Assembly (NCBI RefSeq): GCF_000737325.1
Contig: NZ_CP011125.1
Coordinates: forward strand, 620,001 to 684,000
Length of the DNA: 64,000 nucleotides
Source of the DNA: Sandaracinus amylolyticus
GTDB taxonomy: Bacteria > Myxococcota_A > Polyangia > Polyangiales > Sandaracinaceae
Direction: 5' to 3'
Made by a program: the position numbers and the translations under genes. Shown piece by piece: positions 6,802 to 55,290 of the stretch. Position 1 is the stretch's first letter; each line of letters opens with the position of its first letter. Under the pieces are notes generated by a model, which ran no database searches, was not told the DNA's origin, and saw only the letters and a program-made list of their open reading frames with translations.

Positions 6802-6820
6802 GCTCCACCGAGCTCGGAGC

Positions 6821-6854
6821 AAGAGGCGACTTCCCGCGAGGGAGGTCGCCTCTT
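6821..6854 (+). terminator. rho-independent-like terminator after rpmA
   Basis: A 15-bp stem (6821-6835 with 6840-6854, one T-G wobble) is closed by the GNRA-type loop GCGA, 19 bp after the rpmA stop. The stem is nearly perfect. The 3' T-tract is weak (TCTTCGCGTT), as is usual in such GC-rich genomes. Confidence 0.8.
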
Positions 6855-6896
6855 CGCGTTCCGTCGCTCTTTCATCGCGGCGCGAGACGTGGTCCG

Positions 6897-7478: not shown

Positions 7479-7532
7479 CGACGACGAATCCTCTTCCCGG
7501 TCGCGCGCACGTCACGTGGTAGGCTCCGTCAC

Positions 7533-9029: not shown

Positions 9030-9141
9030 AGCGACGGGAGGTGCGACCCACGATGACCACGTTCCACGGGCGGATGACGCGACGGTCGCGGTATGGACAC
9101 GCACGACCGAGTGTCCTATACACGGGGTTCGGCTGACCTCG

Positions 9142-20365: not shown

Positions 20366-21795
<1,430 letters not shown>

Positions 21796-32466: not shown

Positions 32467-33375
32467 ATGGAAGCGATGCTGCGCCTGGCGCCCGAGGAGG
32501 TCGTGGTCATCGGCGTCGATACGGCACACAAGAAAGGGGAGCACACGCTCTTCGACGAGCGTGTCTTCCTTCCGCTCGATGACGACATGCTGCACTCGAT
32601 CGAGATGTACGGCGTGCTGAAGCCGATCTTCGTGCGCCGAGCCGGGGCAGTGTTCGAGGTCGTCGACGGCCGGCGGCGCGTGCTCCACGCGCGCGAGGTG
32701 AACCGTGCCCAGCGCGAGCGTGGCGGAGGAGATCCCCGGACGGTGCGGGCGATTACGGAGGACGGCGACGACGCGCACCTCTTTGGCCTGTCGCGCCTCG
32801 CGAATCGAGGCGCGAAACCGGAGCACCCGATCCAGACGGCCGAAGCGGCACGGGAGCTCCACGCGAGCGGAAAGTCCCTCAGCGAGATCGCAGGCTATCT
32901 TAACGTCGGTGTTCCGATGGTTCGGAACTATCTCAGCCTCCTCGAGCTCCACTCTCAGGTGCGCGAGGCCGTCGCGGACGAGGCGGTGACGATGACTGCC
33001 GCGCTGAAGCTCGTCGTCCTGCCGGCGGAGCTCCAAGTCGCTGCGCTCGAGGAGCTCCTGCGGAGTGAGAATCGGACGGTCGCCGCCGCGCTGGCGGTAC
33101 GCAATCGACTCTGCACGACCGAGAGCGATGGCAGGTCAGTCCGCGAGCCTCCTCCGCCTCGACGCGTTGTTCAACGGTTCCTGAGCAATCCGTCCGCGTT
33201 CGGACTCGGACACGTGAGCGAGGACTTCTGGCTCGGAGTGCGCTGGTGCCACGGATTCGTTCCGAGCTCGCGAATCCGCGGAATGGCCAATGCCGTCAGA
33301 ACGGCTCTTGAACGAGGTCGGGGGCGCAAGCGCAGCGATGAGCCGCGAGGTGGGGGGAGTGAGAGCCCGAGATGA
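32467..33375 (+). CDS. ParB-like DNA-binding protein
   Basis: ATG 32467 has a GGAGG site 9 nt upstream; the frame is open from ATG 32401. The 302 residues carry a ParB/Sulfiredoxin-type N-terminal domain: DDDMLHSIEMYGVLKPIFVR and FEVVDGRRRVLHAREVN, the latter being the usual GxRRxxA box. A helix-turn-helix follows (KSLSEIAGYLNVGVPMVRNYL). Such proteins bind centromere-like palindromes or act as phage regulators. No ParA ATPase gene is adjacent, which is unusual for a partition pair. It could be the protein that recognises the AAAC-S-R-TTT palindromes. Confidence 0.8.
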   Translation: MEAMLRLAPEEVVVIGVDTAHKKGEHTLFDERVFLPLDDDMLHSIEMYGVLKPIFVRRAGAVFEVVDGRRRVLHAREVNRAQRERGGGDPRTVRAITEDGDDAHLFGLSRLANRGAKPEHPIQTAEAARELHASGKSLSEIAGYLNVGVPMVRNYLSLLELHSQVREAVADEAVTMTAALKLVVLPAELQVAALEELLRSENRTVAAALAVRNRLCTTESDGRSVREPPPPRRVVQRFLSNPSAFGLGHVSEDFWLGVRWCHGFVPSSRIRGMANAVRTALERGRGRKRSDEPRGGGSESPR

Positions 33376-33823: not shown

Positions 33824-35107
33824 ATGGCTGCAGTCACGATCAAGCTCGAACGACAGTCGGCCCTGACGGAGCTCGACCGGGCCCTCGCGTCCCTCACGCG
33901 GGCGGAGCTCGTCGGCGCCTCGCGACGGCGGCCCGCACGCGCGCCCGAGCTCGGAAGCGCGGGAGCCGACGACTCGGACACGCTTCGCGTCGCGAGTGAG
34001 GCACTGCAGAAGTCCCACGCCCAGCTCGAGCAGATGGCGTGGGTTCGCGCGGTACTCCAGCGCGCGCTCGTCGGGAATCAAATCACACCGGTGCTCGATG
34101 GTCGGCAAGTGTGGCTCGAGCTCGAGCATCCCTTGCCGAGCGTGCCGGCGTGGAACCCGCCGCCTCATCAGGTGAGCTTGCGACGGTTTCAGCTGCTGTC
34201 GTGGACTAGCAAGATGGGCACGCCGTCGTTCAGTCTCCCTGCCGGGGCGACCACGATGGGCGGCACCTGTCCGGGCGCCAACGCCGGTCAATCCGTGGTG
34301 CCGCTCGCAACGCTTCGTCGAGCGGCTCGGAAAGTCACGGAGCAGATCGGCGCGCCTGTTCACCTTGCTCAGGCGATCTGCCAACACTGCTACGCGGAAG
34401 GCGGCCAGTATTCCACCGCGACGGTGCAGTACGCCCAACTCGTGCGGCTCGCGTTCGTCAGCGAGATGCTCACCTCGAGAACGAGCCAAGGCGATCTCAC
34501 CGCGCTGTTCGACTACGCCGTCAAGAATGCGAACTACTACCTCAACGGGCGCCGCGGCGCCTCAGATGACGCGGAGCGCTCTCACCGACGTCGAGGAGAG
34601 CGCGATTGTCGGCGCTACTTCCGACTGCACGACAGCGGTGACTTCTTCACCCCGGTCTATTTGGCGGTCTGGAAGACGGTCGCCAATTTGAATCCAGACG
34701 TGAGCTTCTGGGCGCCGTCGCGCGTGTGGGTCAACGAGACGCTGCGCGAAGCGGTGAATGTGGTGAACGGCCCGGCCGAGCATTCGAACCTCGTGATCCG
34801 CCCGAGCGCGTTTCACATCAACGAGCCGGCACCCGATCCGCGCGCGCTCGGCGTGGGTTGGGCCGCGGGCGCGACGACGTACAAGGACGCGCTGAAGCCT
34901 GCGGGACCGCGCGTCAGTGCGCCTGACGGGAGGCGGCCGCCGTACGATTGGGATTGTCAGGCGTACGACCCGGAGAACGAGCTCGCGAGCTGTCGCGAGG
35001 CGCGAGCGCCGGATGGACGTGTCGGATGTCGCGCGTGCTGGACTTACGGCACGCGGAGCCCGGAAGGCGGACCCGGCGGGCTGGCGATCAACTACACGCT
35101 GCACTGA
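33824..35107 (+). CDS. Gp88-like phage protein
   Basis: The 427 residues contain the signature order of phage Gene-88 proteins: GGTCPGANAG, then ICQHCYAEGGQYS, then RLHDSGDFFTPVYLAVW, and a late CRACW. The spaced Cys residues suggest a metal or Fe-S site. The family is found almost only in phages and related elements, and its function is unknown. It may be translationally linked with the Cys-rich gene 11 bp downstream. Confidence 0.75.
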   Translation: MAAVTIKLERQSALTELDRALASLTRAELVGASRRRPARAPELGSAGADDSDTLRVASEALQKSHAQLEQMAWVRAVLQRALVGNQITPVLDGRQVWLELEHPLPSVPAWNPPPHQVSLRRFQLLSWTSKMGTPSFSLPAGATTMGGTCPGANAGQSVVPLATLRRAARKVTEQIGAPVHLAQAICQHCYAEGGQYSTATVQYAQLVRLAFVSEMLTSRTSQGDLTALFDYAVKNANYYLNGRRGASDDAERSHRRRGERDCRRYFRLHDSGDFFTPVYLAVWKTVANLNPDVSFWAPSRVWVNETLREAVNVVNGPAEHSNLVIRPSAFHINEPAPDPRALGVGWAAGATTYKDALKPAGPRVSAPDGRRPPYDWDCQAYDPENELASCREARAPDGRVGCRACWTYGTRSPEGGPGGLAINYTLH

Positions 35108-39830: not shown

Positions 39831-41591
39831 TCAGCTCGGCTGTTCGGGCTCGAGCTCGCCGGTCGGAAGGACCGGGACGCGTGAGGACGCCGGGACGTCG
39901 ACGTCGGCGTAACAGAGCTTCTGTGCGTGCCCGGTCGTGTCACTGATGTAGCGAGCGTCCGCTCGTGCGCGCTCGAACGCGGCCGCTTGCTCGCGCAGAG
40001 CGATGACGAGGTGGCAGCTCACCTCATCCTCGGCCTGTCCATGTCGATGCGTGCGACCGAGGAGCTGCTCCCAAGTCGCACCGACGGTCGGCGGGCTCGT
40101 GACGAGGTTCGTGCTCCATGCCTGTAGGTTCCGACCTTCGGCGTTGGCCTCGATTGAGCAGACGAGCGGCTTGCCCGGCGAGTGATCGAGAATCGATCGA
40201 CCCGTCCGATCGAGTCCGCCGCGTCCGAAGAACGGCACGCCGGCGAGCTCGGCAACGCGCGCACCGAAGTCGACGTGCTCGACCCATGCGATGCCGCCGT
40301 CACCGTCATCACGTCGGCCGTGAAGCCAGCTCGCGCACCGGCGGGCGACTCGCTCCGAGAGCCACACAGCTCGTGTCTGCGGCTTGTACGTCGGCCGCAG
40401 GCGCTGCCACGCCGCAAGGTCCGCTGCGTACTCGGGGAAGCTGCCTGCGGCGATCGCGCGCGTGACCTGCGCCTCGGAGTCGAGCGTGGGGTCGCGACGC
40501 AAGACCTCGCGCACGACGCGCGACCAGACACGACGCGCCTCGAGCCAATCGTCCGGGGGCGCGGGATCCCACCGGTACCAGAAGCCGAGCGCGAGCTCGC
40601 GCAGGTGGCGCCAGACCTCGAGCGCGTTGAGGACCGGCTCCCCATCGGGCCGCTCCCACCGACGCAGCGCCTCGACTGCGTGCACGACTTCGGGCACCGC
40701 GATCAGCTCTGCGTCTATCCGCAGGCTCGCACCGAGCGCGCTCTCGACGGATGCGACGACACCCGGCGTCTCGACGAGCCGCCGCCGGTACGCGCGACGG
40801 ACAGCGCGCACCTCGTCCACGCCGAGCTCGGCGAGCTCGTCGGGCAACTCGCAAAGCCGTCGGAGCGCGCCGACGCGCGGCGGCTCATCGGTGCCGGGGC
40901 GCTCGTCGAGGATCTCGCTCCACGCAAGGCGCGTCTCAAGGTCGCGCGGTGTCGGGTTCGCGCCCTTCAGCGCCCATTTTGCGATGTGCGCGTAGTCGAG
41001 GATCGATCGCTTGGTGATCGTCCCGCTCATCGCGATGAGGCGCGTGCGCGGGTACTTGTCGAAGTACCGCTTCACGCGGCGCGTCACCGCAGCGCGCGAG
41101 TTCTTCAGCTTGTGGCACTCGTCCGCGACGATGAGGTCGGGGCGGATCTGCTCGAGGAGATCACTCGCGTGCGCGCGCCCGAGGAGCTCGTAGCTGACGA
41201 TGCGCACGTACGACGGAACGAGCCAGTGGGCTCGGTACGCGCGCAGCTCGCGCCGTGTCTTCTCGACGAGCTTCGCCGGCACGAGCAGGAGCGGGGCTTC
41301 GGCGGCCCCGACGACTGGCGCGAGGAGCGAGATCAGCGTCTTGCCCTCACCGACGCCAAGCGGCGCGAGCGCGCCGCCGTAGTCGTGCAGATCGCAGAGC
41401 ACGGCGGTCTGCGCGGGGCGCAGCGTCTGGGTGCCCCCCTCGGTGCGTAGGCGAACCGAGAGGTCAGTCGCCAGACTGCTTGCGCGCTCGAGCCAGCGCC
41501 TGCGCGGCAGTCGAAGAATGCGATCGAGCTCAGCGCTCGATCTCACGCCCTCGGCTGCATCGACATCGTTCCTGGCTTCGGCGGCCGACAT
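39831..41591 (-). CDS. SF2 (SNF2-like) helicase
   Basis: The start ATG 41589-41591 gives 586 residues; the longer frame to 41858 is Arg-rich shadow. Helicase motifs are clear: Walker A LGVGEGKTLISLL, DEAH-type box VADECHKLKN, motif III AMSGT, and motif VI QLLGRTHRHGQ, where the Arg finger is expected. SNF2-type enzymes of phages remodel or unwind DNA during replication or recombination. It is the only clear NTPase in the whole element besides the degenerate Hsp70 outside it. Palindrome 4 lies 107 bp upstream. Confidence 0.85.
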   Translation of the reverse strand: MSAAEARNDVDAAEGVRSSAELDRILRLPRRRWLERASSLATDLSVRLRTEGGTQTLRPAQTAVLCDLHDYGGALAPLGVGEGKTLISLLAPVVGAAEAPLLLVPAKLVEKTRRELRAYRAHWLVPSYVRIVSYELLGRAHASDLLEQIRPDLIVADECHKLKNSRAAVTRRVKRYFDKYPRTRLIAMSGTITKRSILDYAHIAKWALKGANPTPRDLETRLAWSEILDERPGTDEPPRVGALRRLCELPDELAELGVDEVRAVRRAYRRRLVETPGVVASVESALGASLRIDAELIAVPEVVHAVEALRRWERPDGEPVLNALEVWRHLRELALGFWYRWDPAPPDDWLEARRVWSRVVREVLRRDPTLDSEAQVTRAIAAGSFPEYAADLAAWQRLRPTYKPQTRAVWLSERVARRCASWLHGRRDDGDGGIAWVEHVDFGARVAELAGVPFFGRGGLDRTGRSILDHSPGKPLVCSIEANAEGRNLQAWSTNLVTSPPTVGATWEQLLGRTHRHGQAEDEVSCHLVIALREQAAAFERARADARYISDTTGHAQKLCYADVDVPASSRVPVLPTGELEPEQPS

Positions 41592-41775: not shown

Positions 41776-42468
41776 TCAGCCGAGCACCTCGAAGACGCGC
41801 GAATCGGCGACCTGGTGCGCCGGAACTTCCCAGCCCACCGGGACATTGACGCTCGCATCGAGCGTCACCCAACGCCGCGGCGCGTCCTTCGGAATGCCGC
41901 CCTGCACGTAGATGTGATTCCACGACCGGCTGTCGCGCGTGCGCACGACCTTGAACCGGCAGGGAACGCCGATGGCCATGAGCGACGCACATGCGAGCGA
42001 GCTGTAGTCGTCGCAGTCGCCCGCCCTCATCTCGAGCGTTCGGCGCGGCGTGGCATACGTATCGACGCCGAGGACGTCGCTGGTGTAGCGGACGTCGCGG
42101 CGCAGGCCCTCGAAGATGGCGCGGATCTCCGCGGCGGTATCCTTCTCGGGCACGCACCACGTTTGCCCGCATCGCCGCGTCACCTGAGCGCGCGCCCACC
42201 GGATGACCTTCGGGTCGATGCGGCCGCGCTTTGCGCGGTCCCGGATCGCATTGATGCGCTCCTCGAGGCTCTTCACCTCACGAAGCTCGAGCGCCATCCC
42301 TCCACGCGCAACGCGGCCCACCGAACGTCCGGCGTGTCCGCGCGGGCCCGGGTCCCTCTCGACGCGCGCGCCGCGCATGCCGTACTGCACGCGGCGAGCG
42401 CCCTTCTGGAAGGCGCTCGCGCCGAGCAGCATCCCCGCCACGCCCACCGCGATCTCACCGAGGTTCAC
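41776..42468 (-). CDS. transglutaminase-like cysteine protease-fold protein
   Basis: The 230 residues begin with a hydrophobic segment (LGEIAVGVAGMLLGASAF) followed by basic residues, so the N-terminus is probably membrane-inserted. A transglutaminase core follows, with the triad visible: Cys in GDCDDYSSLACAS, His in SWNHIYVQGG, Asp in VTLDASVNV. DVRYTSDVLGVDTYATPRRT is also typical. The reaction may be amide hydrolysis or cross-linking. In a virus-like element a role in virion maturation or host wall/protein processing is plausible; it is inferred. Confidence 0.75.
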   Translation of the reverse strand: MNLGEIAVGVAGMLLGASAFQKGARRVQYGMRGARVERDPGPRGHAGRSVGRVARGGMALELREVKSLEERINAIRDRAKRGRIDPKVIRWARAQVTRRCGQTWCVPEKDTAAEIRAIFEGLRRDVRYTSDVLGVDTYATPRRTLEMRAGDCDDYSSLACASLMAIGVPCRFKVVRTRDSRSWNHIYVQGGIPKDAPRRWVTLDASVNVPVGWEVPAHQVADSRVFEVLG

Positions 42469-42501: not shown

Positions 42502-44283
42502 TCATCCGTCGAGGTGCTCGTCGAGCTCGAGCTCGCCCACGTCCTCATCGCTCGCGCTCGATGCGCGTTCGTCGAGCGGCGGTTCGCGGCGCTCTTCCGG
42601 CCTGCTCGTTTCGTTCGAAGGCGTCGCGGTGTGCTGCGCCGGCGATCCCGATGACGAACCTCCAAGGCGTGCGGCGCCCACCATGCGCGCGACCTCCTCG
42701 TGAACCTGCTGCCAGTGCTCACCGAAGGCTGCGACGGCTTCCCGCGCCGCCGCGCCCGAGACGAAGCGGTGCTTCGTGAGCAGCGCAAACCAGTTGGTGA
42801 GCGCACGAAGCGCGTCGTCTCGTCGACCGTCCGCGGCGAGCTGCAGCAGCTCGCTGACGAACGGCCGCCACTGCGCCGTGGGATAGAGCGTCATGAGCGC
42901 TCCGATCGTCGCCGCGATCCGCTGTTCGGCGCTCTCGGCCCGCTCGAGCTCGCCGAGCTTCGGTCGGAGCTCCTCGGGCAGATAGATCCGCGGCTCCGCC
43001 GCACGCGGCGCGAGCGTCGTAGCGCCACCTTGCTTGTCGACGGCCGGCGGGAGCGCGCGCTCGGCGCTGGCGGCGATATCCTGAGCGCCACGCTTCTGAC
43101 CGATCGCGAGCGCGATCGCGCGCCCGAGGTTCGCGCCGAACGCCTCCTGGCTCAGCAGACCCGCGAGCGCGTCCCAGAACGTCGTGCCCGCCGGGCCCGG
43201 CGGCGCGCTCGGCGTAAACTCGCTCGCAAACTGCTTCATCGCGAGCAGCGCTTGCATCTGGTCCTGCAGTGTCACGCTGGGTTTTTCGTCGCGACGCTGC
43301 TCCCGCACGAGCTCGATCACGTCCCGCGTCGTCAGGCGGTCGGGGTCCTTCTCGCGCAAGAGGCCGAGCACATCTTTCAGCGAGAGCTGGTCGGAGTTCT
43401 TGAAGAGCGCCGCGACTGCGACGACCGACTCCGCGATCTCGCGGATGTTCAATCCCGCCAGAGGCGATGCAGGCGGCGGCGGGGGCGCGGGGAGCGCGGG
43501 CGCGCTCGCAGTCTTCTCGAGCTGCTCCATGCGCCGATCGAGGCGGTCGACGATCGCGGCGAGCGCGGGATCGACGCGCGGCTGCTGGAATGCCTGCATC
43601 GCGAGCATCAGGAGCATCGGATCCGAGGCGCCGTCCTTCTGGCCCGAGATCTCCTTGAGCTGCTGCATCGCGCGCTGCGCACGCATCATCTGTTCGATGG
43701 GATCGGGCTGCGGCGGGATGTTCATCGTCTTCTGCTCCAGCTTCGTGACCATCTCGCGCACGAGGTGAAGTGCGGAGTCCTGCGGCGCTTCGGCGGGAGG
43801 ATCCACGAGGGCGATCACGCCCGCCTGATGCTCCATCCCGCGCGAGTCAAAGATGGAGACGTAGTAATCGCCGCCCTTGTGGATGGGCCGGACGTAGCGG
43901 TGCAGATGCACCTCGAGGTCACCACTCGTCTCGATGTCGCGAATCGAGTAGTCGCCGACGTAGCCGACGTTCCCGGTCTCGAGCTTCTTCCGGATGCGCA
44001 CGCGCTCGGCGCCGGGCACGAGCTCGGCGACCTTGCCGAGGCGGCGCAGCGCGGGCGAGACGTGCGCCCGAGCGTTCTCTTTGGCTTCCTTGGCGTGCGC
44101 GCGTACCTCCGTCTGCGTGGGCAGCCGGTGCCCCGCGCCGAGCGCCTCCAGCAGCGGCCCAGTAGCGGGCGATCCGGGCGGCTCGGGCGGCTGGCCGATG
44201 ATCTGTGCGAGCTCGGGCGACAGCTCGTCGAGCAGACCGTCCACCGAGGGGCCGTCGGTTGCAGCGTTGGGATTGAGGCTCAT
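42502..44283 (-). CDS. large helical protein, possible virion or scaffold component
   Basis: The 593 residues start 4 bp inside the recombinase stop (ATGA overlap). An N-terminal region is Pro-rich, then a beta-rich segment of about 80 residues (VGYVGDYSIRDIETSGDLEV and DYYVSIFDSRGMEHQAGV). The long helical region that follows contains Gln/Met-rich coiled-coil-like stretches (MMRAQRAMQQLKEISGQKDG). The C-terminus is strongly acidic. No motif is recognised. It has the look of a scaffolding or internal protein; this is an inference from composition. Confidence 0.5.
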   Translation of the reverse strand: MSLNPNAATDGPSVDGLLDELSPELAQIIGQPPEPPGSPATGPLLEALGAGHRLPTQTEVRAHAKEAKENARAHVSPALRRLGKVAELVPGAERVRIRKKLETGNVGYVGDYSIRDIETSGDLEVHLHRYVRPIHKGGDYYVSIFDSRGMEHQAGVIALVDPPAEAPQDSALHLVREMVTKLEQKTMNIPPQPDPIEQMMRAQRAMQQLKEISGQKDGASDPMLLMLAMQAFQQPRVDPALAAIVDRLDRRMEQLEKTASAPALPAPPPPPASPLAGLNIREIAESVVAVAALFKNSDQLSLKDVLGLLREKDPDRLTTRDVIELVREQRRDEKPSVTLQDQMQALLAMKQFASEFTPSAPPGPAGTTFWDALAGLLSQEAFGANLGRAIALAIGQKRGAQDIAASAERALPPAVDKQGGATTLAPRAAEPRIYLPEELRPKLGELERAESAEQRIAATIGALMTLYPTAQWRPFVSELLQLAADGRRDDALRALTNWFALLTKHRFVSGAAAREAVAAFGEHWQQVHEEVARMVGAARLGGSSSGSPAQHTATPSNETSRPEERREPPLDERASSASDEDVGELELDEHLDG

Positions 44284-45347
44284 TCGTCTTCCTCCTCGTG
44301 CTCGTCATCGGGATCGTCGTCGGGCGGCGGCACGGTCAGCACGCGCGCTTCGGCGGTCTGCGCGAGCAGTGCGCCGACGGACGCTCTTGCTCGGCTCACG
44401 AGCTCCTCGCGCGCGCCTTTCGCGACGAGACGAGCGCCGCTCGTCGCGTTAGCCACGTCTTGCACCTGAATCTCGAGGTAGTGGTCCATGGTGGTCTGGA
44501 CCGACTCGTGCCCTGCGATCTTCGTCAGCGTAGGGACGTCGATGCCGTGCCGATAGAGCGTCGTCAGGTAGGTGCGCCGGAGCGTGCGCGGCGTGAGCCG
44601 GACGTAGCGCCCGAGAGCCTCACTGATGCGCTCTCGGATAAGCTTCACGTGATGTCGAAGCGTACGAGTCGCGACATGCCCGCCCCCCGGCATGGGGAAG
44701 AGCCACTTACCACTCTGCCGGCGCCTCCAGCCGCGCAAGTAGGCTAGAAGAAGAGGCTTTCCATCGAGTAGCAGCGGCACGACGCGGTGCTTGCCGCCTT
44801 TGCCGTTGACGGAGATGACGATCATCTCCTGCGGACGCGACCCCGACGCTCCGCGCGACGCCCCGACCGGCAGCGTCAGCTTCGAGAGATGACCGAGCTC
44901 GAGCGACGCTGCCTCGAACGTTCGAAGCCCTGAGTACGGCAGGAGCAGGAGAGCCGTGCGCACCGGCTCGTGCACGCGGGATGCGAGCGCGAGATACGCC
45001 AGCAGCGTCTCGCCGCTGAGCGCGTTCGGAGGAGGTCCGTGCCGACGCGGGATGTCGGCGCGGCCGAGCACAGGAAGCGACTGGCCCTTGTCGGCGCACC
45101 ACTCCAGGTAGCGCTTCGCGCCCGCAGCCATCGTCTTCACGCTCGCCGGCTTCATGCCTGCGTGGAGTAGGTGTTCGGCGAAGAGCCGAATCGCTCCGGG
45201 CGGCAGCGCCGACATCTCGAGCTGGTGCTGCGCGCAGAAGAGCATGAAGCGCGACGCGGCCTGGGCGTACTTGATGGCCGTGTTCTTCGACCTCACCGCG
45301 AGCACGTACGAGCGGAACGACTCGATGCTGAGGTCGGGGAGCGGCAT
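44280..45347 (-). CDS. second tyrosine recombinase
   Basis: ATG 45345-45347 gives 355 residues. XerC/D-type SAM-like N-domain: SIESFRSYVLAVRSKNTAIK, then RLFAEHLLHAGMKPASVKTM. Catalytic residues are Arg in YSGLRTFEAASLEL, Lys in NGKGGKHRVVPLL, and GHESVQTTMDHYLEIQ with the late His and Tyr. The HxxR box reads TPRTLRRTYL, with Arg in place of His, an unusual substitution. It has an acidic C-terminal tail. It sits in the middle of the element rather than beside an attachment site, so it may resolve or integrate the element itself or invert DNA. Palindrome 5 lies 35 bp upstream. Confidence 0.88.
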   Translation of the reverse strand: MPLPDLSIESFRSYVLAVRSKNTAIKYAQAASRFMLFCAQHQLEMSALPPGAIRLFAEHLLHAGMKPASVKTMAAGAKRYLEWCADKGQSLPVLGRADIPRRHGPPPNALSGETLLAYLALASRVHEPVRTALLLLPYSGLRTFEAASLELGHLSKLTLPVGASRGASGSRPQEMIVISVNGKGGKHRVVPLLLDGKPLLLAYLRGWRRRQSGKWLFPMPGGGHVATRTLRHHVKLIRERISEALGRYVRLTPRTLRRTYLTTLYRHGIDVPTLTKIAGHESVQTTMDHYLEIQVQDVANATSGARLVAKGAREELVSRARASVGALLAQTAEARVLTVPPPDDDPDDEHEEEDE

Positions 45348-45525: not shown

Positions 45526-45870
45526 GTGCCGCTCCGACGACGTCCGTTGAACCGCTTCGGTCTCCCTCAGAACGTCGAGGGCGGCAGAGGCTCTCTCGTC
45601 CACGTGTGCGACGCGACCTCGGCGCAGCTCGGCGGACCGTTTCTCGATGAGGTGACGGTGATTGTCGTGAACAGCGATCTGTCGCCCGCTCGCGTTCAGG
45701 TGCAGGTCGGCGCGGGGGCGGCGTTCGCGGTCGACGTGCCGCCCGGGACGCGCCTCGCGGTGCTGACGGATCAGCCGGTTCGAGACTCCGGTGCTGAAAT
45801 CCGCCTGACGGACATCTCTGGCAATCCGGCGCCGATGCAGGCGTTCGGCTGGTTCACGAGGACGACCTGA
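45526..45870 (+). CDS. small beta-rich protein, first gene of the right arm
   Basis: GTG 45526 has a GGGAGGT site 5 nt upstream and gives 114 residues. The sequence is almost all beta-strand-like (VTVIVVNSDLSPARVQVQVG, PPGTRLAVLTDQP). Such small sandwich proteins are common as virion decorations or spikes. No family is recognised. Its stop overlaps the next ATG by one base. Confidence 0.6.
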   Translation: MPLRRRPLNRFGLPQNVEGGRGSLVHVCDATSAQLGGPFLDEVTVIVVNSDLSPARVQVQVGAGAAFAVDVPPGTRLAVLTDQPVRDSGAEIRLTDISGNPAPMQAFGWFTRTT

Positions 45871-46226
45871 TGCTGCTCAAGTTCACCACGAAGGAAGAGC
45901 AGCTCGCGCGCGGGGCCACCTACCTCGACGACCTCGACATGATCACGTCGCCTCGAGGCGGGCACCTCGTGCCTGTCGCGATGAAGTACGGTGTGCACGT
46001 TTGCTGGGCGTGCGGCGAGCCGTTCCAGGCCGAACATCCGCGCCTGAGTCTCGCGGAGAAGCGCATCGACGGCGGCACCGTTCCCGTCGCGGTGCATGCG
46101 AAGTGCGTCGCGCCGCGCGTGATGAGCCTTCCGTTCCTCCACACGGTGCTCGGCCTCGGCGTTCGGAGGCAGATCGCCGACGTCGTGCGCCGCGCGGCGG
46201 ACGTTCTCGAATCGGAGCGCACGTGA
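45870..46226 (+). CDS. zinc-ribbon-like hypothetical protein
   Basis: ATG 45870 shares a base with the previous stop; the protein has 118 residues. CWACGEPFQAEHPRL and the later HAKC could bind zinc. The C-terminal region is helical. No family is recognised. Confidence 0.5.
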   Translation: MLLKFTTKEEQLARGATYLDDLDMITSPRGGHLVPVAMKYGVHVCWACGEPFQAEHPRLSLAEKRIDGGTVPVAVHAKCVAPRVMSLPFLHTVLGLGVRRQIADVVRRAADVLESERT

Positions 46227-46329: not shown

Positions 46330-46899
46330 ATGGACTACGACATGGCGGGCCTCGCGATGTACGACGACGCGATGGGCCTCGATGGGGGCATGAGCGGACC
46401 GTTCATCACGGGCGAGATGCTGAAGCAGAAGCTGATGGCGGCGGGGGCCGGGGCCCTCGGCATCGCAGTTGCGGCGAAGCTCGTCAGCTACGTCGGCGAC
46501 GCGGTGCTGCCGGAGGAGTGGGAGCCGAAGAGCAGGGCGACCGCGAAGAGCGCGCTCGCGATCGCGCTCGGACTGCTCGGCGGGCGCGCGCTCTATGACA
46601 CCAACCGAGATGCCGCGATGGGACTCGTCGGCGGCGTGGCCGGGCTCGGGATCGCGCAGCTCCTCGGAACGCTCGTCAACGAGGAAGGCGCAGAGCCGCT
46701 CATCAGCACGTCGCTCGCTGGCTCGCACGGCATCAGCTCGCTCGACCTCGCGGCCCTCGAGAGCGCCGTGGTCACGACCTCACCGTCGTTTACGCCGATG
46801 TCGATGGACCTCGCCGCTCCGGTCGTGACCGAGAGGAGGCTCGGTGGGCCTGTCGTCACCAACGAAGTGCTCGCCGAGTACATGCCGTACCTGTCGTGA
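46330..46899 (+). CDS. multi-helix membrane protein of the right arm
   Basis: ATG 46330 follows GGAGG by 4 nt; 189 residues. Hydrophobic stretches MAAGAGALGIAVAAKLVSYV, AKSALAIALGLLGGRAL and AMGLVGGVAGLGIAQLLGTLV alternate with short charged loops. The C-terminal 70 residues are Ser/Thr/Leu-rich and soluble. It is the first gene of a likely transcript under palindrome 6 and could be a virion membrane protein. Confidence 0.55.
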   Translation: MDYDMAGLAMYDDAMGLDGGMSGPFITGEMLKQKLMAAGAGALGIAVAAKLVSYVGDAVLPEEWEPKSRATAKSALAIALGLLGGRALYDTNRDAAMGLVGGVAGLGIAQLLGTLVNEEGAEPLISTSLAGSHGISSLDLAALESAVVTTSPSFTPMSMDLAAPVVTERRLGGPVVTNEVLAEYMPYLS

Positions 46900-46997: not shown

Positions 46998-47696
46998 ATG
47001 TCGCTCCAGCCGGTGGAGGGGCAGCCCGGACTGTTCCGCGAGTTCAACGAAGCGGGAGAGCCGGTCGGTCCCATCGTCAACATTCGTGAGTTCCGGGAAG
47101 ACGATAAGTACGACACGATCGCGATCCCGACCGGTCCGATCCCGCTCGGGACGGTGTTCCTGTTCTTTCAGGACATCCAGGGCAAGCGGAACCTCGACAC
47201 GAACTTCCGCACTCCGAGCAAGCTGTCGGCCGGCGAGTCGATGGTGCTAGACCGCGTCGGACTCTACGTCCGATCGATCACGGGAACTGCGGTCGTCCCT
47301 CCCGTCGACTTCAAGACGATCACGGACTGCGCGTTCTACGAGCTGCGCATCAACGACCTGCTCCAGACGCAGGGGCCGGCGATCAAGTACCCCTCGGGCT
47401 ACGGCCTGTACGGCTCGACGAACGAGGAGGGCGCAGGTGTCGTCTCGATCGGCGTGCCTGCCACCGCGAGCGTGTCGAAGCTCGTGAAGAAGCAGATGCT
47501 CAATCAGAACCATGATCTGCAGGCGTCGCTCAGCTTCGAGCAGCGCCAGTGGCTCACCGCGGGCCAGAACCCTCCGTTCGCGAGCTCGAGCGACGTGGTG
47601 CCCCGCATCACGACGATCGGAGTCAAAGAGCAGCAGGGCGCGGTGCTCGTCACGAACGTGCTGCATGGACTCCTGCGCACGCCGGTCAGCAAGTGA
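46998..47696 (+). CDS. candidate large capsid protein
   Basis: ATG 46998 has AAGGA upstream; 232 residues. It is beta-rich throughout with short loops: TIAIPTGPIPLGTVFLFFQD, GESMVLDRVGLYVRSIT, TDCAFYELRINDLLQTQG, VTNVLHGLLRTPVS. There is no signal or membrane helix. Together with the 165-residue neighbour it has the size and order of the two major capsid proteins of single-jelly-roll membrane-containing viruses (Sphaerolipoviridae/P23-77 type, roughly 230-290 and 170-185 residues as I recall). No sequence motif proves this. Confidence 0.45.
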   Translation: MSLQPVEGQPGLFREFNEAGEPVGPIVNIREFREDDKYDTIAIPTGPIPLGTVFLFFQDIQGKRNLDTNFRTPSKLSAGESMVLDRVGLYVRSITGTAVVPPVDFKTITDCAFYELRINDLLQTQGPAIKYPSGYGLYGSTNEEGAGVVSIGVPATASVSKLVKKQMLNQNHDLQASLSFEQRQWLTAGQNPPFASSSDVVPRITTIGVKEQQGAVLVTNVLHGLLRTPVSK

Positions 47697-47752
47697 TGAG
47701 AGCGCGAGCGCCGTAGCAAGCGCTCGCGACTCGCACGAAGGGAGCGAGCAAC

Positions 47753-48250
47753 ATGACCAGCGCGGGATCGGGTGCCGGAGCGCTTCCGCCGGGCCACGTC
47801 CGCAGATACTACGGCGACCTCGCGAGCGGTGAGCTGCATCCCGACAGGATGCGGATCGACAATCTGACTTTCCGCGCGGTCATCGACCGCGCCGGCCTGG
47901 TGTTGGCGCAGACCCCGAAGATCTCGATCGTCAGCCAGTATCAGTTCGCGTTGCGACGCGTCTTCGCATCGATGGTGCACGACGAGCTCGACGGCGGCTC
48001 GTCCGACCTCCTGCAGTTCAACGTGCGCGAGCAGGGCCGCGGCTTCGACGTGTTCAAGAAGCCGATCTCGTTCGCGGCGGCTCTGCGGCTCGGACCCATC
48101 GAGCACGATGGTACGTACATCTGCATCGCGGGAACGGATCTCGAAGTGACGTGGACCGTCGATGTGCCGCTCTGGCAGTCGCTCGTCGATGCCACTCGCA
48201 TCGTGAAGGTGACTCTGTCGGGCGACTACGTGAGCTGTTCGACGCGATAG
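47753..48250 (+). CDS. candidate small capsid protein
   Basis: ATG 47753 follows GGGAG; 165 residues. Beta-rich (MRIDNLTFRAVIDRAGLVLA, DLLQFNVREQGRGF, TYICIAGTDLEVTWTVDV) with one amphipathic helix and no membrane segment. It directly follows the 232-residue candidate, 56 bp away. A jelly-roll fold would be the key test. Confidence 0.45.
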   Translation: MTSAGSGAGALPPGHVRRYYGDLASGELHPDRMRIDNLTFRAVIDRAGLVLAQTPKISIVSQYQFALRRVFASMVHDELDGGSSDLLQFNVREQGRGFDVFKKPISFAAALRLGPIEHDGTYICIAGTDLEVTWTVDVPLWQSLVDATRIVKVTLSGDYVSCSTR

Positions 48251-48271: not shown

Positions 48272-48637
48272 ATGAGAGGCGAGGTCGAGCAGGAGCTCGC
48301 GATACGCGCGTTCCGGGCTGCACAGGTCGGTCCTCTACGTCGCGCGTTCGGCGGGATCCGTACGAATCGCGTCAGCCGTGGCGAGGGCGCGCTGCTCGGT
48401 GCGAATCGGAGCGAGGACCGCGCGCTCTACGTCGCCGTGCAGCTCCTCGGCACGAGCGCAGCAGTGGTGCCGACGACGTTCGGGAGCACCGGCGCCGGTC
48501 GCGGTAGCGGCCTCACCGAGGTCCTCATGGCCGACGACGATGTCGCAGACTTCGTGCTGCTCCCCGGCGACGAGTTGTGGGCCGTGCAGGGGACCCTCGA
48601 CGTCGCGACATACGTGATTTCGGAAGTGACGTTCTGA
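48272..48637 (+). CDS. small beta-rich protein
   Basis: The 121 residues are helical for the first 30, then beta-strands (ALYVAVQLLGTSAAVVPTTF, FVLLPGDELWAVQGTLDVATY). The 'PGD-L' phrase is close to PPGTRLAV in the protein at 45526, suggesting a related sandwich fold. Virion decoration or spike is a reasonable guess only. Confidence 0.5.
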   Translation: MRGEVEQELAIRAFRAAQVGPLRRAFGGIRTNRVSRGEGALLGANRSEDRALYVAVQLLGTSAAVVPTTFGSTGAGRGSGLTEVLMADDDVADFVLLPGDELWAVQGTLDVATYVISEVTF

Positions 48638-48668: not shown

Positions 48669-49373
48669 GTGCGAGAGATGATCGCGATGCTCGACGGACT
48701 CGCCCCTCACGTGACCGCGGGCGGGGGCCAGAACTACACGGGCGGTGCGGCCTACCCCGAGCGTGCCGGCTTTCCGACGTACGCGAGCTCCGAAGGGCTC
48801 GCATCGTACCTTCGCGAGTTCCGCACGACGACCCGCGAGTACGGCGTCGCACCGGGTGGTGGGGCGCTCTACGTCGGAGGAGCGACTTACCCAGGCCAGG
48901 GGATGCCCGTCGGCTCGAGCGCGACGGCGCTCGACGAGTACATTCGAGCGCTCGGCGGCTCGAACTACAGCATAGAGCCCGGTGGCGGTCAGAGCTTCGT
49001 CGGGGGAGCCGCATACCCCGGCGCTGGGTTCCCCGTCTACGCAAGCAGCGAAGGACTCGCCGGCTCGGCTGTATCGGCACGGGCGTACGTTCTGCGGCGC
49101 CTCATCCACTCCGCCGAGCGGGTTGCGCGCGGCGTCGTCGAGCACTGTCCTGTTGCCGCGTCGCACTACAACACGGCGTCGCGCCTGGACCGGCTCCATG
49201 CGCATGCCGGGCTTTCGCCCGCCGCCGAGCTGGCGCGGCAGCGACGCCGCGGAGCGGTCTGGCTCTCCGCGCTCTCCGCGCTCCGTGTTTGTCGTTCGAC
49301 GGTCGTCGCGCGCGCGCCCGGGCTCTGGCCCGTGGTCGAGCGCGCGCACTCGATGCTCCGCGGCGCGATCTGA
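48669..49373 (+). CDS. protein with three tandem Gly/Tyr-rich repeats
   Basis: The start is GTG 48669; 234 residues. Three repeats of about 45 residues fill the first 130 residues, each with the pattern GGGQNYTGGAAYPERAGFPT followed by SSEGLASYLREF or a variant (GGALYVGGATYPGQGMP; GGGQSFVGGAAYPGAGFP). The C-terminal 100 residues are Arg/Ala-rich, helical. A spike, fibre or anchor protein is possible. Confidence 0.55.
   Translation: MREMIAMLDGLAPHVTAGGGQNYTGGAAYPERAGFPTYASSEGLASYLREFRTTTREYGVAPGGGALYVGGATYPGQGMPVGSSATALDEYIRALGGSNYSIEPGGGQSFVGGAAYPGAGFPVYASSEGLAGSAVSARAYVLRRLIHSAERVARGVVEHCPVAASHYNTASRLDRLHAHAGLSPAAELARQRRRGAVWLSALSALRVCRSTVVARAPGLWPVVERAHSMLRGAI
48716..49075 (+). repeat. tandem coding repeats
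   Basis: Three diverged units of about 120-135 bp encode the GGG-YP-SSEGL repeats; units 1 and 3 are the most alike. Confidence 0.6.
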
Positions 49374-49380: not shown

Positions 49381-51030
49381 ATGGCTTCTCGTCTCCATCG
49401 CGCGCGGGCTCTCGGAGCGAGCCCGGTGCCGCTCTTCACGGCGACGTCGCTTCGTGCCGACCCGGCGTTCAGGTTGGCGCTGTCTCGATCACTCCTGGAC
49501 TCGATCGTGAGCGATCAGCGCATGTGGACGCTCGATGCGAGCTACCGCGTCGGGCGCGAGAGCAATTCGATGTGCAGTCCCAAGGGATATCCGTCGCGGC
49601 CGTGGGCGCCTGGGGGCCGCTGCGGGTACTTCGAGATGGACTGTCAGCACTCGATCTACGTGCTCGACGTCCCGTGCACGCTCGCGAACACGAACGAGCT
49701 CCTCTGGCAGTTCCCACGCTACGTGTGGGCGCAGGCAAAGCTGCGCGAGCTGCTCTCGAATCGTCCCGAGGCGTCCTACCCGACGCCGGCGCGCGCGCGG
49801 CAGTGGGCGCGCTGGTGTTGGGACGTGTGCGAGCTGATCTCGCTCGCCGTCTGGTCGACGAACATCCGCGACGCGTACGCCGGCAAGCTCGTACCGGGCT
49901 CGAGCGGGACGCGGCCCGACGTGTGGGATTCGACTCCCTACCTCGACCTCAGCGACGGACCGAAGCTGCGCGCCTTCCGCGAGCGGCTCGCCGGCGAAAA
50001 GACCGAAGCGCGTTATGGCGCGCACGCGAGGTCGGAAGTACGGATGCCCACCAGGTGGCGGCTGTGGAACCGTGTCGTCAATGGACATGGTTGGAAGCGC
50101 GAGAGCAATCGTGTCTTCCTCCAGCCGCCCGAGATTCCGCGCCAGCGCAGCGACTTCTCTCCCGTCGAAGCGTTCTGGCCGAACGCATGGAAGGACGCGA
50201 TCGGCCGACGCCCGGACTCACTCGGATTCGAGAAGCCGTACTACACCGAGAGCCCGCCGACAGATCGGTTCGAGCGCCTCGTGCGGCTCTTCGAGCTGTC
50301 CCGCTCGCCGCGCGCTCTGCTCGTGCCTGTCGAGTACCTGGACGTGCGCAATCGCCCGCAGCAGGGAACCTATCTGAGTCTCGAAGGCTTCGTCGGGTAC
50401 CTCGAGGCGGCCGCGTCCGACTTGGTGATCGATCGCCCGTACGCGCGATGGGTGTCGCACGGTCTGAAGGTCTGGAACGACGCATTCATGCGCCTACCCG
50501 GTGATTACCGTCGGAACCTGCAAGGCAATCTCGACTTCTCACGCGCGCTCGCGACGATGGCGACCGAGGCGCATGCCGACCAGTACTTCCTCGGCGCGCA
50601 CACGGCGCTGAGCGCGACGGGAGCGGTCCTGGCGTCGATACCGTTCGGGCAGATCGCTGCGGTCGGCATCGCCGTAGTCCAGGCGCTCCTCACCGTGCTC
50701 CACGAGGTCTTCAAGGCTCTCGACATCTATGCTCAGGGTGGCGGTGCGATTCCTCCCTGCCCGCCTCCTCCCGTGATCCGAATCATCAAGGGAGGGCAGG
50801 AGTGCAACTGGGACGACCCCGAGCGCGACGGCATGCGCCGGGACGAGCTCGAGTCGGAGGCGCAGCGGCTCTTTCCCGAGCGCTCCCTGCCCGGCAGTTC
50901 CATCTTCACGCTTCCGGTACCGATTCATCCGCCGCGAGGTGGGGCACCTCGTCGAAACCCGAGAGCGACAAACCTCGTGCTCGGAGCTGCCGGCGCCGCG
51001 GCTCTCGTGTACTGGATGAGGCAGAGATGA
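49381..51030 (+). CDS. large tail-anchored protein of the right arm
   Basis: ATG 49381, 549 residues, the biggest right-arm product. Trp/Tyr/Arg-rich soluble part (YPSRPWAPGGRCGYFEMDCQ, WARWCWDVCELISLAVW). A hydrophobic stretch lies near residue 420 (LSATGAVLASIPFGQIAAVGIAVV). The C-terminus ends in a single helix plus basic tail (LVLGAAGAAALVYWMRQR). No family is recognised. Its stop overlaps the next ATG (ATGA). It is a plausible virion membrane or vertex protein. Confidence 0.55.
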   Translation: MASRLHRARALGASPVPLFTATSLRADPAFRLALSRSLLDSIVSDQRMWTLDASYRVGRESNSMCSPKGYPSRPWAPGGRCGYFEMDCQHSIYVLDVPCTLANTNELLWQFPRYVWAQAKLRELLSNRPEASYPTPARARQWARWCWDVCELISLAVWSTNIRDAYAGKLVPGSSGTRPDVWDSTPYLDLSDGPKLRAFRERLAGEKTEARYGAHARSEVRMPTRWRLWNRVVNGHGWKRESNRVFLQPPEIPRQRSDFSPVEAFWPNAWKDAIGRRPDSLGFEKPYYTESPPTDRFERLVRLFELSRSPRALLVPVEYLDVRNRPQQGTYLSLEGFVGYLEAAASDLVIDRPYARWVSHGLKVWNDAFMRLPGDYRRNLQGNLDFSRALATMATEAHADQYFLGAHTALSATGAVLASIPFGQIAAVGIAVVQALLTVLHEVFKALDIYAQGGGAIPPCPPPPVIRIIKGGQECNWDDPERDGMRRDELESEAQRLFPERSLPGSSIFTLPVPIHPPRGGAPRRNPRATNLVLGAAGAAALVYWMRQR

Positions 51031-52136
51031 ATGCGTCGGTTCGGCGCGGCTGTGGATGCGGTGCGACGAGCGCACTTCCTTACCGCACGCCGCAGGAGTA
51101 TCGCGAAGCAGCGAATCGGTTTGTCGCGATCGGCAGCACTCGCGCGCCGAGTGCGCAGCGGGCCGCTTCCGTTGCGTACGCTACGGCTCGCGCATCGCGC
51201 CGCGGAGATGCGCGCGCGGCGCTCGCGGGCCTGCGAGAGCTCCGCGCGCTCGCGGACGCCGAGCAGGACCAGATCCGCACCCTAGAAAGGCAGCTGTCGA
51301 CGCGCGCGGGGACGATCCGCGGCCGCATCCAGATGGTCGCGCAGCTCGCGTCGGGGGTTGCGAACATCATCGGTCTGGCCACGCGCGACCCGAACGTGAT
51401 GAAGGTGATCCGCTGGATCGACTACATCATGGGAGTCAATCCGTCCCCGCCCGAGCAACTGAACTTCCGCGAGCTCGCGGAGTTCTGCCGCGTGTGGAAC
51501 GGTGGGGTGGGCGTTGCGGCGCTCGCCGGCGTGCGCGGCATTGCGGCAGTCGCCGCCGCCGCGGGGGCGGCGACACGCACGTCGTCGCTCGCCGAGCTCG
51601 GCCGCATCGTCAACGAGGTCGCCGGATACGTGGAGATGGCGACACAGCAGATCTGCGCGCTGGCGCAGACGCAGGCGCCCAGCTCGGAGGGCTCCTCGAG
51701 CAATCCGGGCGATGCTCCTCGCCCGCATCCGGCGCCGGACCCGCTCGCCGAGGCACGCCGCCGCTGGCGAATCGCGATGAGCGCTCGGGTTCTCGCAGAA
51801 GCCTTCATCAAGGCGACTCCCAACTCGAGAAACCAACGCATTCGGGAGAATGCGATTCGCAACAACTGCAAGTACGCGTGCGACCTCGAGAACGCGGAAC
51901 GCAGCTACCTGGAAGCGAAACGCGCGGCAGGTCAGGACGCGACAATCGAGAGGTTCTCGAGCACCGTGACTCCGAGCGTGCGTCCTCGTCGGTATGTCGA
52001 CGGCGCGACGGCGCCGAGCGGCTGCACCTGCGGCGGAGGCGCCGACGCGTCGAGAGGCACGGGCAGTGGCGCCGCCGGCGTCGCTGCTGCGGCAGCTGGC
52101 GTTGCCCTCGTTGCGTATCTCTCACTGCGCGCGTGA
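51027..52136 (+). CDS. tail-anchored helical protein
   Basis: ATG 51027 overlaps the preceding stop by 4 bp; 369 residues. Starts with a Cys cluster (RRGCGCGATS), then a long coiled-coil-like helix (LRALADAEQDQIRTLERQLS). Hydrophobic segments follow (IQMVAQLASGVANIIGL, VGVAALAGVRGIAAVAAAAG). It ends with CTCGGG and a final helix GAAGVAAAAAGVALVAYL. No family is recognised. Confidence 0.55.
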   Translation: MNASVRRGCGCGATSALPYRTPQEYREAANRFVAIGSTRAPSAQRAASVAYATARASRRGDARAALAGLRELRALADAEQDQIRTLERQLSTRAGTIRGRIQMVAQLASGVANIIGLATRDPNVMKVIRWIDYIMGVNPSPPEQLNFRELAEFCRVWNGGVGVAALAGVRGIAAVAAAAGAATRTSSLAELGRIVNEVAGYVEMATQQICALAQTQAPSSEGSSSNPGDAPRPHPAPDPLAEARRRWRIAMSARVLAEAFIKATPNSRNQRIRENAIRNNCKYACDLENAERSYLEAKRAAGQDATIERFSSTVTPSVRPRRYVDGATAPSGCTCGGGADASRGTGSGAAGVAAAAAGVALVAYLSLRA

Positions 52137-52405: not shown

Positions 52406-52546
52406 GTGAAGGCGCCGAAAAAGACGCGGCGGCGCCTCGGCAAATGCACGTGCGGCAACGTGAAGCGCCGCGGCCGTTGGTACCGATTCTGCTGGGACCG
52501 ACTCGGAATCCGCAGCGTCGAGAGGCTTCCGAGGCGCTCGCGATAG
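52406..52546 (+). CDS. 46-residue basic Cys protein
   Basis: GTG 52406 is 2 bp after the previous stop. The product is very basic with a CTC...C pattern (KAPKKTRRRLGKCTCGNVKR, WYRFCWDRLG). It pairs with the 52-residue protein; both look like small nucleic-acid-binding factors. Confidence 0.55.
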   Translation: MKAPKKTRRRLGKCTCGNVKRRGRWYRFCWDRLGIRSVERLPRRSR

Positions 52547-52559
52547 GAAAGGGACGTCG

Positions 52560-52979
52560 ATGTCGAAGGACAAGCGGAGGCAGGACTGCTGCCCGTGCCC
52601 GCTCACGCTGGCTCGTCAGGCGTTCCGCAGCGCGAAGTCGTGCGAGGAAATGCGCGAGGCCACGAGCGCATTCATGCATGCGGCCTCGGCCGAGCTGAAC
52701 CAGCGGCAGCCCGGGCCTGCGCGTGAACGCTACGAGCGCCTCATCGACGCGGAGTTCGATCGCATGGCGGAGAAGTCCGCTGTCCAGTGCCAGTACGGCC
52801 AGTCGCGAAGCCCTCGCGCCATCGAGGCGATTACTCGATCGCGTCTACGTGTGCGTCAGGCCATCCGGCAGCGCGCACGGGCAGAGGAGCGATCGCGCGC
52901 GCGAATCGATGCTGCGCTCGCCTCGCAGCGAGCGGCGATGACGCTCCGCGGAGCACGACCGCCGCGCGGCAAGCGGTGA
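52560..52979 (+). CDS. helical Cys-containing hypothetical protein
   Basis: ATG 52560 has AGGAAAGGGA upstream; 139 residues. N-terminal Cys cluster (RRQDCCPCPLTLAR), then charged helices (RERYERLIDAEFDRMAEKSA, RQAIRQRARAEERSRARID). No family is recognised. Confidence 0.55.
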   Translation: MSKDKRRQDCCPCPLTLARQAFRSAKSCEEMREATSAFMHAASAELNQRQPGPARERYERLIDAEFDRMAEKSAVQCQYGQSRSPRAIEAITRSRLRVRQAIRQRARAEERSRARIDAALASQRAAMTLRGARPPRGKR

Positions 52980-53551: not shown

Positions 53552-54395
53552 ATGTCCATGGATTGCGCGGTGCCCCCGCTCGACCAGGCGGCGACTCGCA
53601 TCGGGCGCGGCTACAACCGCGACCGCACGCGGCGCGATCAGCTGCACGCGGGCATGGACTTCGTCGCGGATGCAGGCACGCCTGTGCTCGCGCCGATCGC
53701 GGGCACAGTCGTGCTCAAGAGCACAGACACCGGTCCACTCGTTCCTCCGCCCGGGCCCGGGGCAGGTGCGGGGCATTGGCGGGTACGGCAATGCACTCGT
53801 GTTGCAGCACGAGCTCGCGCTGCCTGGGCTGCCGGTGCCGTTCTGGACTTCGTACAACCATTTGCGGGAACCGTCGCTCATCGACGTCGGGCAGCGCGTC
53901 GAGTCGCAGGCCCTCATCGGATTCGTCGGAAGCACGACGAACCGTCAGTTCCTCGGGATGGGTGCCCACCTCCATTTCGAAGTGCGCGGGCGACCGTTTC
54001 CCGGCACCCATGCTCGCGACACGATCGATCCGGCGCGACTGTTCGCGGCGCTCGGGATCGACGTCGTCGGCGCCAGGCGCGAAGTCGCGCGCTCAGTTGG
54101 CGGACAGTTGCTCGTGCGAGTTGCAGGCCCGAGTGACTGCTTCCACTCGGATAACGCCGGGCTCGCGCTCGCGTCCCTGCCCGGCGCGCACGTCGACCCG
54201 GAGCGACTCCGTCGGACATACCAGCGCTACGGCTATTCAGGGAACAATCAGAACATCGAATCACCGTCGCTGAGGCCACCCGACTATTCGGGTCAAAGCG
54301 AAGCGGTCGCGGTGAACGGCGACTCCACGGCAGGTGCCGTGGCGAGGCGCGTCGTTGCGATAGCGGGGGCTGGAATCGGCGCCGCTTGGATCTGA
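53552..54395 (+). pseudogene. M23-type endopeptidase with a +1 frameshift
   Basis: Read as one protein this is an M23 (LytM-like) peptidoglycan endopeptidase with C-terminal extension. The first frame starts at ATG 53552 and contains the Zn-binding LHAGMDF motif (H32, D36) and AGTPVLAPIAGTVV. The second frame picks up GIGGYGNALVLQHELALPGL and supplies the second Zn motif HLHFEVRG. It runs on to DPARLF and a C-terminal hydrophobic helix near 54340-54380. The frames join at a G run (53759-53762) in a CCCGGGCCCGGGG context: one extra base. It may be a true inactivating mutation, a sequencing error in a GC run, or programmed slippage. Neither half alone has a full Zn site. Confidence 0.75.
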
Positions 54396-54424: not shown

Positions 54425-54985
54425 ATGACGACCTATGCGGAGCTCGACGAGAGCGCGGTCGAGGCGAGCGAGGTGACGCCCGCACGTCGCGTTCAGGCGC
54501 GCGCGATGTGTGCGTCGACGCGAGCCGAGTATCGATGGCTGCTCGTCGACGTCTGCGCGCGTCGGCGCGCGGGCGCGCGCCCGATGGAGAAGATCTCCAC
54601 TTCCCGAGATGCGGCCCGCGTCTGCCGCGAGTTCGTGAACCAGAGTGCACTCGTGCAGGAGCTCTTCGGAGTGCTCTGTCTCGACACGAAGAATCGCCCC
54701 GTCGGATTCGCAATACCGCATGCGGGCGGGCTCGACGCGTCAATTGTCGACGTGAAGACGGTTTTCAAGCCCGCCTTGCTCATCCCGGCCGCGTCCGTCG
54801 TGCTCTGTCACAATCACCCGAGCGGTGATCCGAGACCGAGCGCCGACGATGTGGCGCTCACCCGCCGGCTGCTCGTCGCAAGCGAGTATCTCGGCGTGCG
54901 CCTCCTCGACCACGTCATCCTCGGAGAGGACGACCAGTACTTCTCGTTCATCGATGCGGGGCTGCTCGGGGGAGTCACGGCATGA
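54425..54985 (+). CDS. RadC-like JAB/MPN-domain protein
   Basis: ATG 54425, 186 residues. JAMM metal motif intact: CHNHPSGDPRPSADD, preceded by VDVKTVFKPALLIPAASVVL and followed by LLDHVILGEDDQYFSFIDAG. RadC-family proteins are frequent in mobile elements; their molecular role is disputed. The N-terminal half lacks the helix-hairpin-helix of full-length RadC and is replaced by a short unrelated helical region. Its stop overlaps the next ATG by 4 bp. Confidence 0.88.
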   Translation: MTTYAELDESAVEASEVTPARRVQARAMCASTRAEYRWLLVDVCARRRAGARPMEKISTSRDAARVCREFVNQSALVQELFGVLCLDTKNRPVGFAIPHAGGLDASIVDVKTVFKPALLIPAASVVLCHNHPSGDPRPSADDVALTRRLLVASEYLGVRLLDHVILGEDDQYFSFIDAGLLGGVTA

Positions 54986-55290
54986 ACCCTCTGCTTCTCG
55001 TTCTCGCGGCCGCATTCCTCATCGGCGTGAGCGTGCCGGGCCTCGTTGTGATCCTGCGAGCGCCCGATGCGATACAGGCGCTCGTGCGCGCCGGCGTCAA
55101 GCCGTGGGCATGCGACCTCTGCATGTGCCTATGGACAACGTTCAGTCTCGTCGCGCTCGCCGCTGCATCTCTCGGTGAGCCGCGCGTGCTGCTGGCTGCG
55201 GGACCGAGCTACACGCTCAGTCTCCTGGTGCTCCGAGTGGTCCAGGCGCCGTACGGCGCCAGCTCGCCGACGAAGCCGCCGGACCTCTGA
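54982..55290 (+). CDS. small membrane protein
   Basis: ATG 54982 overlaps the RadC-like stop (ATGA); 102 residues. Three hydrophobic helices: LLLVLAAAFLIGVSVPGLVVIL, then CLWTTFSLVALAAASLG, then SYTLSLLVLRVV. A CDLCMC motif lies at the entry of the second helix, as in the DUF1360-type phage membrane proteins. Position beside wall hydrolases makes a holin-like role possible. Confidence 0.55.
   Translation: MNPLLLVLAAAFLIGVSVPGLVVILRAPDAIQALVRAGVKPWACDLCMCLWTTFSLVALAAASLGEPRVLLAAGPSYTLSLLVLRVVQAPYGASSPTKPPDL

Follow-up and report, generated by a model that had tools for sequence, protein, structure and literature searches.

The window, i.e., the whole stretch of 64,000 nucleotides analyzed here, carries two neighboring open reading frames on its forward strand, which encode proteins of 232 and 165 amino acids (Table 1). 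Both are preceded by purine-rich stretches resembling ribosome-binding sites (GAAAGGA and GAAGGGAG, respectively), and neither protein contains a hydrophobic segment. The initial annotation had described the pair, at these positions and side by side, as beta-rich proteins without membrane helices situated behind a membrane protein gene. These features are borne out: the secondary structure of both AlphaFold2 models is rich in beta strands (at low confidence for the 232-aa protein), and the gene in front encodes a protein with two hydrophobic segments.

Conservation and gene neighborhood of the pair

Homologs of the 232-aa protein (52–61% identity) are found in three IMG/VR contigs (L001–L003) and one MAG contig labeled Fimbriimonadaceae (L011), and the same four contigs encode homologs of the 165-aa protein (38–44% identity) with the gene order retained. 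Together with the window copy, these contigs constitute the five elements referred to below. With homologs arranged alike in four other contigs, both reading frames lie far beyond chance. Within its block, the 232-aa protein shows the strongest conservation (52–61% as opposed to roughly 24–48% for the others), which is what one would expect of the main protein of a capsid. No kinship between the 232-aa and 165-aa families is detectable with hhalign.

The 232-aa protein has no tblastn match among 50,697 phage and 72,556 plasmid records, and the 165-aa and 593-aa proteins have none among the phage records. Wider profile scans of viruses returned the same three contigs and added none, and no further members were found in 379 genomes of the window's phylum or in 291 genomes of the MAG's phylum. 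In Pfam and PHROG scans of the pair and its neighbors, the transglutaminase fold is the sole family recognized. Short segments from the N-terminus of the 232-aa family (EGQPGLFRD..NIRDFRE type) reappear in other small reading frames (E 2e-6 to 8e-5), namely G057 52509–52736, G057 58590 onward and G058 78794–79180, the rest of which bears no relation to the family or no clear one. The segments possibly represent a shared docking arm or duplications of the gene start.

Table 1. Coordinates of the features in and around the candidate capsid module (positions in the window).
Feature	Position	Strand	Remarks
attL, 45-bp 3' end of tRNA-Phe	20395..20439		exact repeat 85,119 bp away, outside the window
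Tyrosine integrase of the tRNA-Phe island	20377..21795	-	Pfam Phage_integrase E 3e-15; overlaps attL
SNF2-like helicase	39831..41591	-	5/5 elements; sub-cut-off Pfam SNF2/DEAD matches
230-aa transglutaminase-fold protein, candidate maturation protease or cross-linker	41776..42468	-	Pfam Transglut_core E 6e-13
593-aa conserved protein, scaffold or core candidate	42502..44283	-	5/5 elements; gene flanked by those for the recombinase and the transglutaminase-fold protein
XerC/D-like tyrosine recombinase of the block	44280..45347	-	Pfam Phage_integrase E 1e-17; 5/5 elements
107-aa small protein of the module	45547..45870	+	G060 relative, E 5e-4
118-aa CxxC protein of the module	45870..46226	+	relatives in L001-L003, G060
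189-aa protein, two hydrophobic segments, candidate virion membrane protein	46330..46899	+	5/5 elements; directly 5' of the 232-aa gene
Candidate large major capsid protein, 232 aa	46998..47696	+	5/5 elements
Candidate small major capsid protein, 165 aa, predicted single jelly roll	47753..48250	+	5/5 elements
121-aa protein, candidate spike or vertex protein	48272..48637	+	role from position and size
GGG-repeat protein of the module	48669..49373	+	N-terminal half similar to G060 250-aa and G057/G058 324-aa proteins
369-aa protein, C-terminal hydrophobic anchor	51027..52136	+	G060 relative, E 2e-16
M23 peptidase (peptidoglycan hydrolase), frameshifted	53552..54395	+	Pfam Peptidase_M23 E 2e-9
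102-aa protein, three hydrophobic segments	54982..55290	+	relatives in L001-L003

The proteins common to all five elements are the SNF2-like helicase, the XerC/D-like recombinase, the transglutaminase-fold protein, the 593-aa-type and 189-aa-type proteins and the pair itself. The conserved order of the block runs from the tyrosine recombinase over the 593-aa, transglutaminase-fold and membrane proteins to the 232-aa and then the 165-aa protein. In the IMG/VR contigs, the genes from the recombinase to the 165-aa protein form a single run on the same strand, and in the window copy the recombinase, 593-aa and transglutaminase genes lie on the strand opposite to the pair. The helicase gene is part of the replication region in the free genomes. 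No Pfam family matches the 593-aa protein. The gene of the 121-aa protein, located directly 3' of the 165-aa gene, has relatives in G058 and G060 and a partial one in L001. Several module proteins, including the M23 and endolysin-like ones, carry a C-terminal membrane anchor. Further genes with relatives in these genomes encode a GP88-family protein (Pfam PF17338, E 2e-26; 33824–35107, relative in G057), adjoined by a ParB-like gene (32467–33375, relative in G060), and a RadC-like JAB protein (54425–54985, relative in G057) directly 3' of the frameshifted M23 gene.

Free circular relatives and the chromosomal island

The three IMG/VR contigs measure 82.7, 88.8, and 101.9 kb. Identical terminal direct repeats of 123 bp indicate that the 82.7- and 101.9-kb contigs are circular and probably complete assemblies, and a short tandem repeat lies at the end of the 88.8-kb contig. 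The free genomes of the lineage are probably circular and presumably consist of double-stranded DNA. They also encode a family A DNA polymerase, primases and helicases. PHROG scans of most G059 and G057 proteins show replication genes, peptidoglycan hydrolases and fiber-like proteins among the 25 leading families per scan. Two of the fiber-like proteins, encoded at 3093–9218 of G059 (L022), match the PHROG family “head decoration” (phrog_2647, with E values as low as 5e-100), and the YadA stalk family is matched by one. These matches suggest host-binding fibers on a tailless particle. The closest relatives of the window copy (61% identity for the 232-aa protein) lie on a 96-kb contig (G060:C10, L029–L033) which was binned in the Fimbriimonadaceae MAG. 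Its G+C content of 67% and its closeness to the window copy cast doubt on this host assignment.

The window copy is located in an 85.1-kb island at tRNA-Phe, which spans positions 20395 to 105558 and thus extends past the end of the window. The G+C content drops from about 73% outside the island to 66% inside. Within the island, only the part at about 32.5–55.2 kb and a helicase near 95.5 kb show matches to the virus contigs. The island is much larger than its virus-related part, and the large reading frames at 64080–73111 (outside the window), for example, are unmatched in the virus contigs. The polymerase and nuclease were not found in the island. Furthermore, comparison of the M23 gene with its relative in the G060 MAG reveals a frame switch near 53728–53760, with 62% identity before and 43% after, which reflects either decay or a sequencing error. 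Owing to the missing replication genes, the frameshifted M23 gene and the confined matches, the host copy looks partial or decaying. It probably represents an incomplete provirus; alternatively, a composite island may carry the virion module.

Predicted folds, the SSIP-1 link and the search for packaging and tail genes

AlphaFold2 models of the pair were built on the alignment of the five sequences. The model of the 165-aa protein (pLDDT 72.6, pTM 0.66) has its best solved match in the capsid protein of Sulfolobus polyhedral virus 1 (SPV1; 6oj0_A, rmsd 3.6, 126 aligned residues), with a Z score of 8.6 that is barely above the background reported by the tool. Lower matches include the capsid chains of STIV (Z 7.5), HHIV-2 (7.0) and SH1 (6.8). 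The prediction of a single jelly roll for this protein is well supported. A capsid-specific relation is suggested rather than proved, since the model also matches non-capsid jelly rolls such as nucleoplasmins (Z 8.2) and phage cement proteins (6.3–6.5), and plain Foldseek finds nothing better than E 0.01 in the PDB. The model of the 232-aa protein is poor (pLDDT 49.7) and mostly beta, and nearly all of its neighbors at Z 5–6 are jelly-roll capsid or beta-sandwich proteins, with SPV1 chain 6oj0_Z at Z 5.3. These neighbors count as weak evidence, and the 232-aa protein would probably be a single jelly roll as well. Profiles of the pair searched against all PDB chains return nothing meaningful, BFVD searches give no informative match, and known jelly-roll capsid proteins show no sequence similarity to either protein. 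The two-protein jelly-roll capsid which the initial annotation had proposed, to be examined by structure prediction, is supported in part, namely by the predicted fold of the 165-aa protein and the conserved virion-type context, and the 232-aa model is suggestive at most. The proposal is probably correct in kind and in some of its details.

The transglutaminase-fold protein connects the module to Salisaeta icosahedral phage 1 (SSIP-1), a tailless virus that has two types of major capsid protein and is built from vertical single beta-barrels (PMC6356626, PMC4958249). Among the 50,697 phage records, it matches the SSIP-1 “structural protein” gp34 with E 2e-8 as its one clear relative, the next match being to a Methanobacterium virus (E 0.03), and in the IMG/VR scan the family is limited to the three contigs and SSIP-1. 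The residues Cys152, His185, and Asp204 of the catalytic triad are invariant, SSIP-1 gp34 included. For the 232-aa and 165-aa proteins, blastp, hhalign and shuffled Smith-Waterman comparisons with SSIP-1 gp44–gp48 detect no significant similarity. By eye, the 232-aa protein looks similar to gp46, but this likeness was dismissed, as its z is 2.4 and other SSIP-1 proteins scored higher.

Profiles of the large terminase subunit (TerL; phrog_2, PF03237), portal (PF04860) and HK97 capsid protein (PF05065) have no matches in the three virus contigs, and phrog_2, portal and HK97 profiles have none in the MAG contig. In controls, 4–13 of 14 genomes were positive for terminase, portal or HK97 profiles. 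At the sensitivity of the motif and profile searches, the elements share no conserved Walker-A (P-loop) protein, and neither relatives of the P23-77, SH1, or PRD1 packaging ATPases nor any FtsK/HerA match were found. Matches to PHROG “tape measure” families were rejected as indicating a tail gene, as their only source is the M23 peptidase domain. These results bear on the possibility that the 165-aa and 232-aa proteins serve a tailed phage as cement or decoration, its HK97 capsid protein and terminase having diverged too far to be recognized. The cement proteins of KHP30/KHP40 and Pam1, which are jelly rolls, do lie among the structural matches of the 165-aa model, and the fiber-like proteins of G059 match both “head decoration” and “tail fiber” families of PHROG. 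However, the absence of terminase, portal and HK97 matches and of a conserved P-loop ATPase, together with a transglutaminase partner that is specific to a tailless phage, makes a tailed phage unlikely.

A candidate tailless lineage and its known counterparts

The pair is likely the two-protein capsid module of a lineage of tailless, probably membrane-containing viruses with large genomes, allied to SSIP-1 and distinct from the sphaerolipoviruses. The observations comprise the conservation and order of the genes, the free circular genomes, the lack of matches to terminase, portal, HK97 or FtsK/HerA genes and the link to SSIP-1 through one structural protein, and from them we infer the capsid role of the pair, the internal membrane and the mode of packaging. 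The 232-aa and 165-aa proteins would form jelly-roll capsomers around an internal vesicle, which would carry the 189-aa membrane protein and the peptidoglycan hydrolases with C-terminal membrane anchors. The 121-aa and 107-aa proteins may be parts of vertices or spikes, and the transglutaminase-fold protein might mature or cross-link the shell. Since no packaging ATPase was found, the DNA may be enclosed by co-assembly rather than pumped in, as in the portogloboviruses and FLiP, which lack such an ATPase (PMC8812541). The broader proposal of a lineage at family level or higher, combining a tailless and membrane-containing particle, circular genomes of 83–102 kb, two single-jelly-roll proteins and ATPase-free filling, is about evenly balanced.

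An origin independent of SSIP-1 would be implied if the elements were bacterial viruses of the Portogloboviridae type, with single-jelly-roll capsomers and ATPase-free encapsidation. SPV1 provides the best structural match of the 165-aa model, possesses two single-jelly-roll capsid proteins and shares with the lineage a circular dsDNA genome and the lack of a packaging ATPase. Yet the match hardly exceeds the background, no sequence similarity to SPV1 or any PDB chain is detected, host domain and genome size differ (SPV1 has a 20-kb genome and an archaeal host), and the transglutaminase-fold protein points to SSIP-1. This reading is about as unlikely as a tailed phage. Slightly less likely, and already disfavored, is membership in the true Helvetiavirae with their small and large single-jelly-roll proteins and FtsK/HerA-type packaging ATPase: the two adjacent beta-rich proteins, their size, the accompanying membrane protein and the structural matches to chains of SH1 and HHIV-2 would fit, but the searches yielded no such ATPase, the genes stand in the opposite order, sequence similarity is lacking and the genomes are about 3–5 times larger.

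The same points set the SSIP-1-allied lineage apart from the Sphaerolipoviridae, to which the initial annotation had likened the pair. Two adjacent capsid genes of similar size among virion genes are indeed found in P23-77 and SH1/HHIV-2, SH1 VP4 even comprising 232 aa, and P23-77 encodes peptidoglycan hydrolases as does the lineage. The likeness in size thus stands, while that in order does not, as the small protein comes first in P23-77 (VP16, 173 aa; VP17, 291 aa) and SH1 (VP7, 185 aa; VP4, 232 aa) and the large one in the window. The absence of sequence identity noted at the outset is confirmed by phmmer and hhalign searches against VP16/VP17 and VP4/VP7. Genomes of the Helvetiavirae measure 16–31 kb (SH1 31 kb), as opposed to 83–102 kb in the lineage. 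FLiP and the Odin-group double-jelly-roll viruses likewise have prokaryotic hosts and no packaging ATPase but differ in their double jelly-roll capsid protein and in genomes of about 7–18 kb.

In SSIP-1, the arrangement resembles that of the lineage. A coiled protein and gp34 are followed later by gp44 with hydrophobic stretches and then by gp45 and gp46, paralogs of about 210 aa. Both genomes are circular dsDNA (presumed to be double-stranded for the lineage). In contrast to the lineage, no XerC-like gene is seen in the SSIP-1 block, and SSIP-1 gp40 carries a P-loop which the conserved module lacks. If the proposed kinship holds, a group of 83–102-kb genomes tied to SSIP-1 would extend bacterial tailless capsids to medium phage genome sizes, raising the question of how DNA of this length enters the shell if there is no packaging motor. 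Experiments could start from the copy in the chromosome of a Myxococcota-type genome. An ancestral state has been proposed for small ATPase-free viruses, among them SPV1 and FLiP (PMC8812541). Published prokaryotic double-jelly-roll genomes measure about 7–18 kb (PMC5894146) and those of the Simuloviridae 16–19 kb (PMC12642351). The 83–102 kb of the lineage far exceed all described prokaryotic jelly-roll viruses found in the literature, among which SSIP-1, with 44 kb or half the size of the lineage, comes next and so far stands alone.
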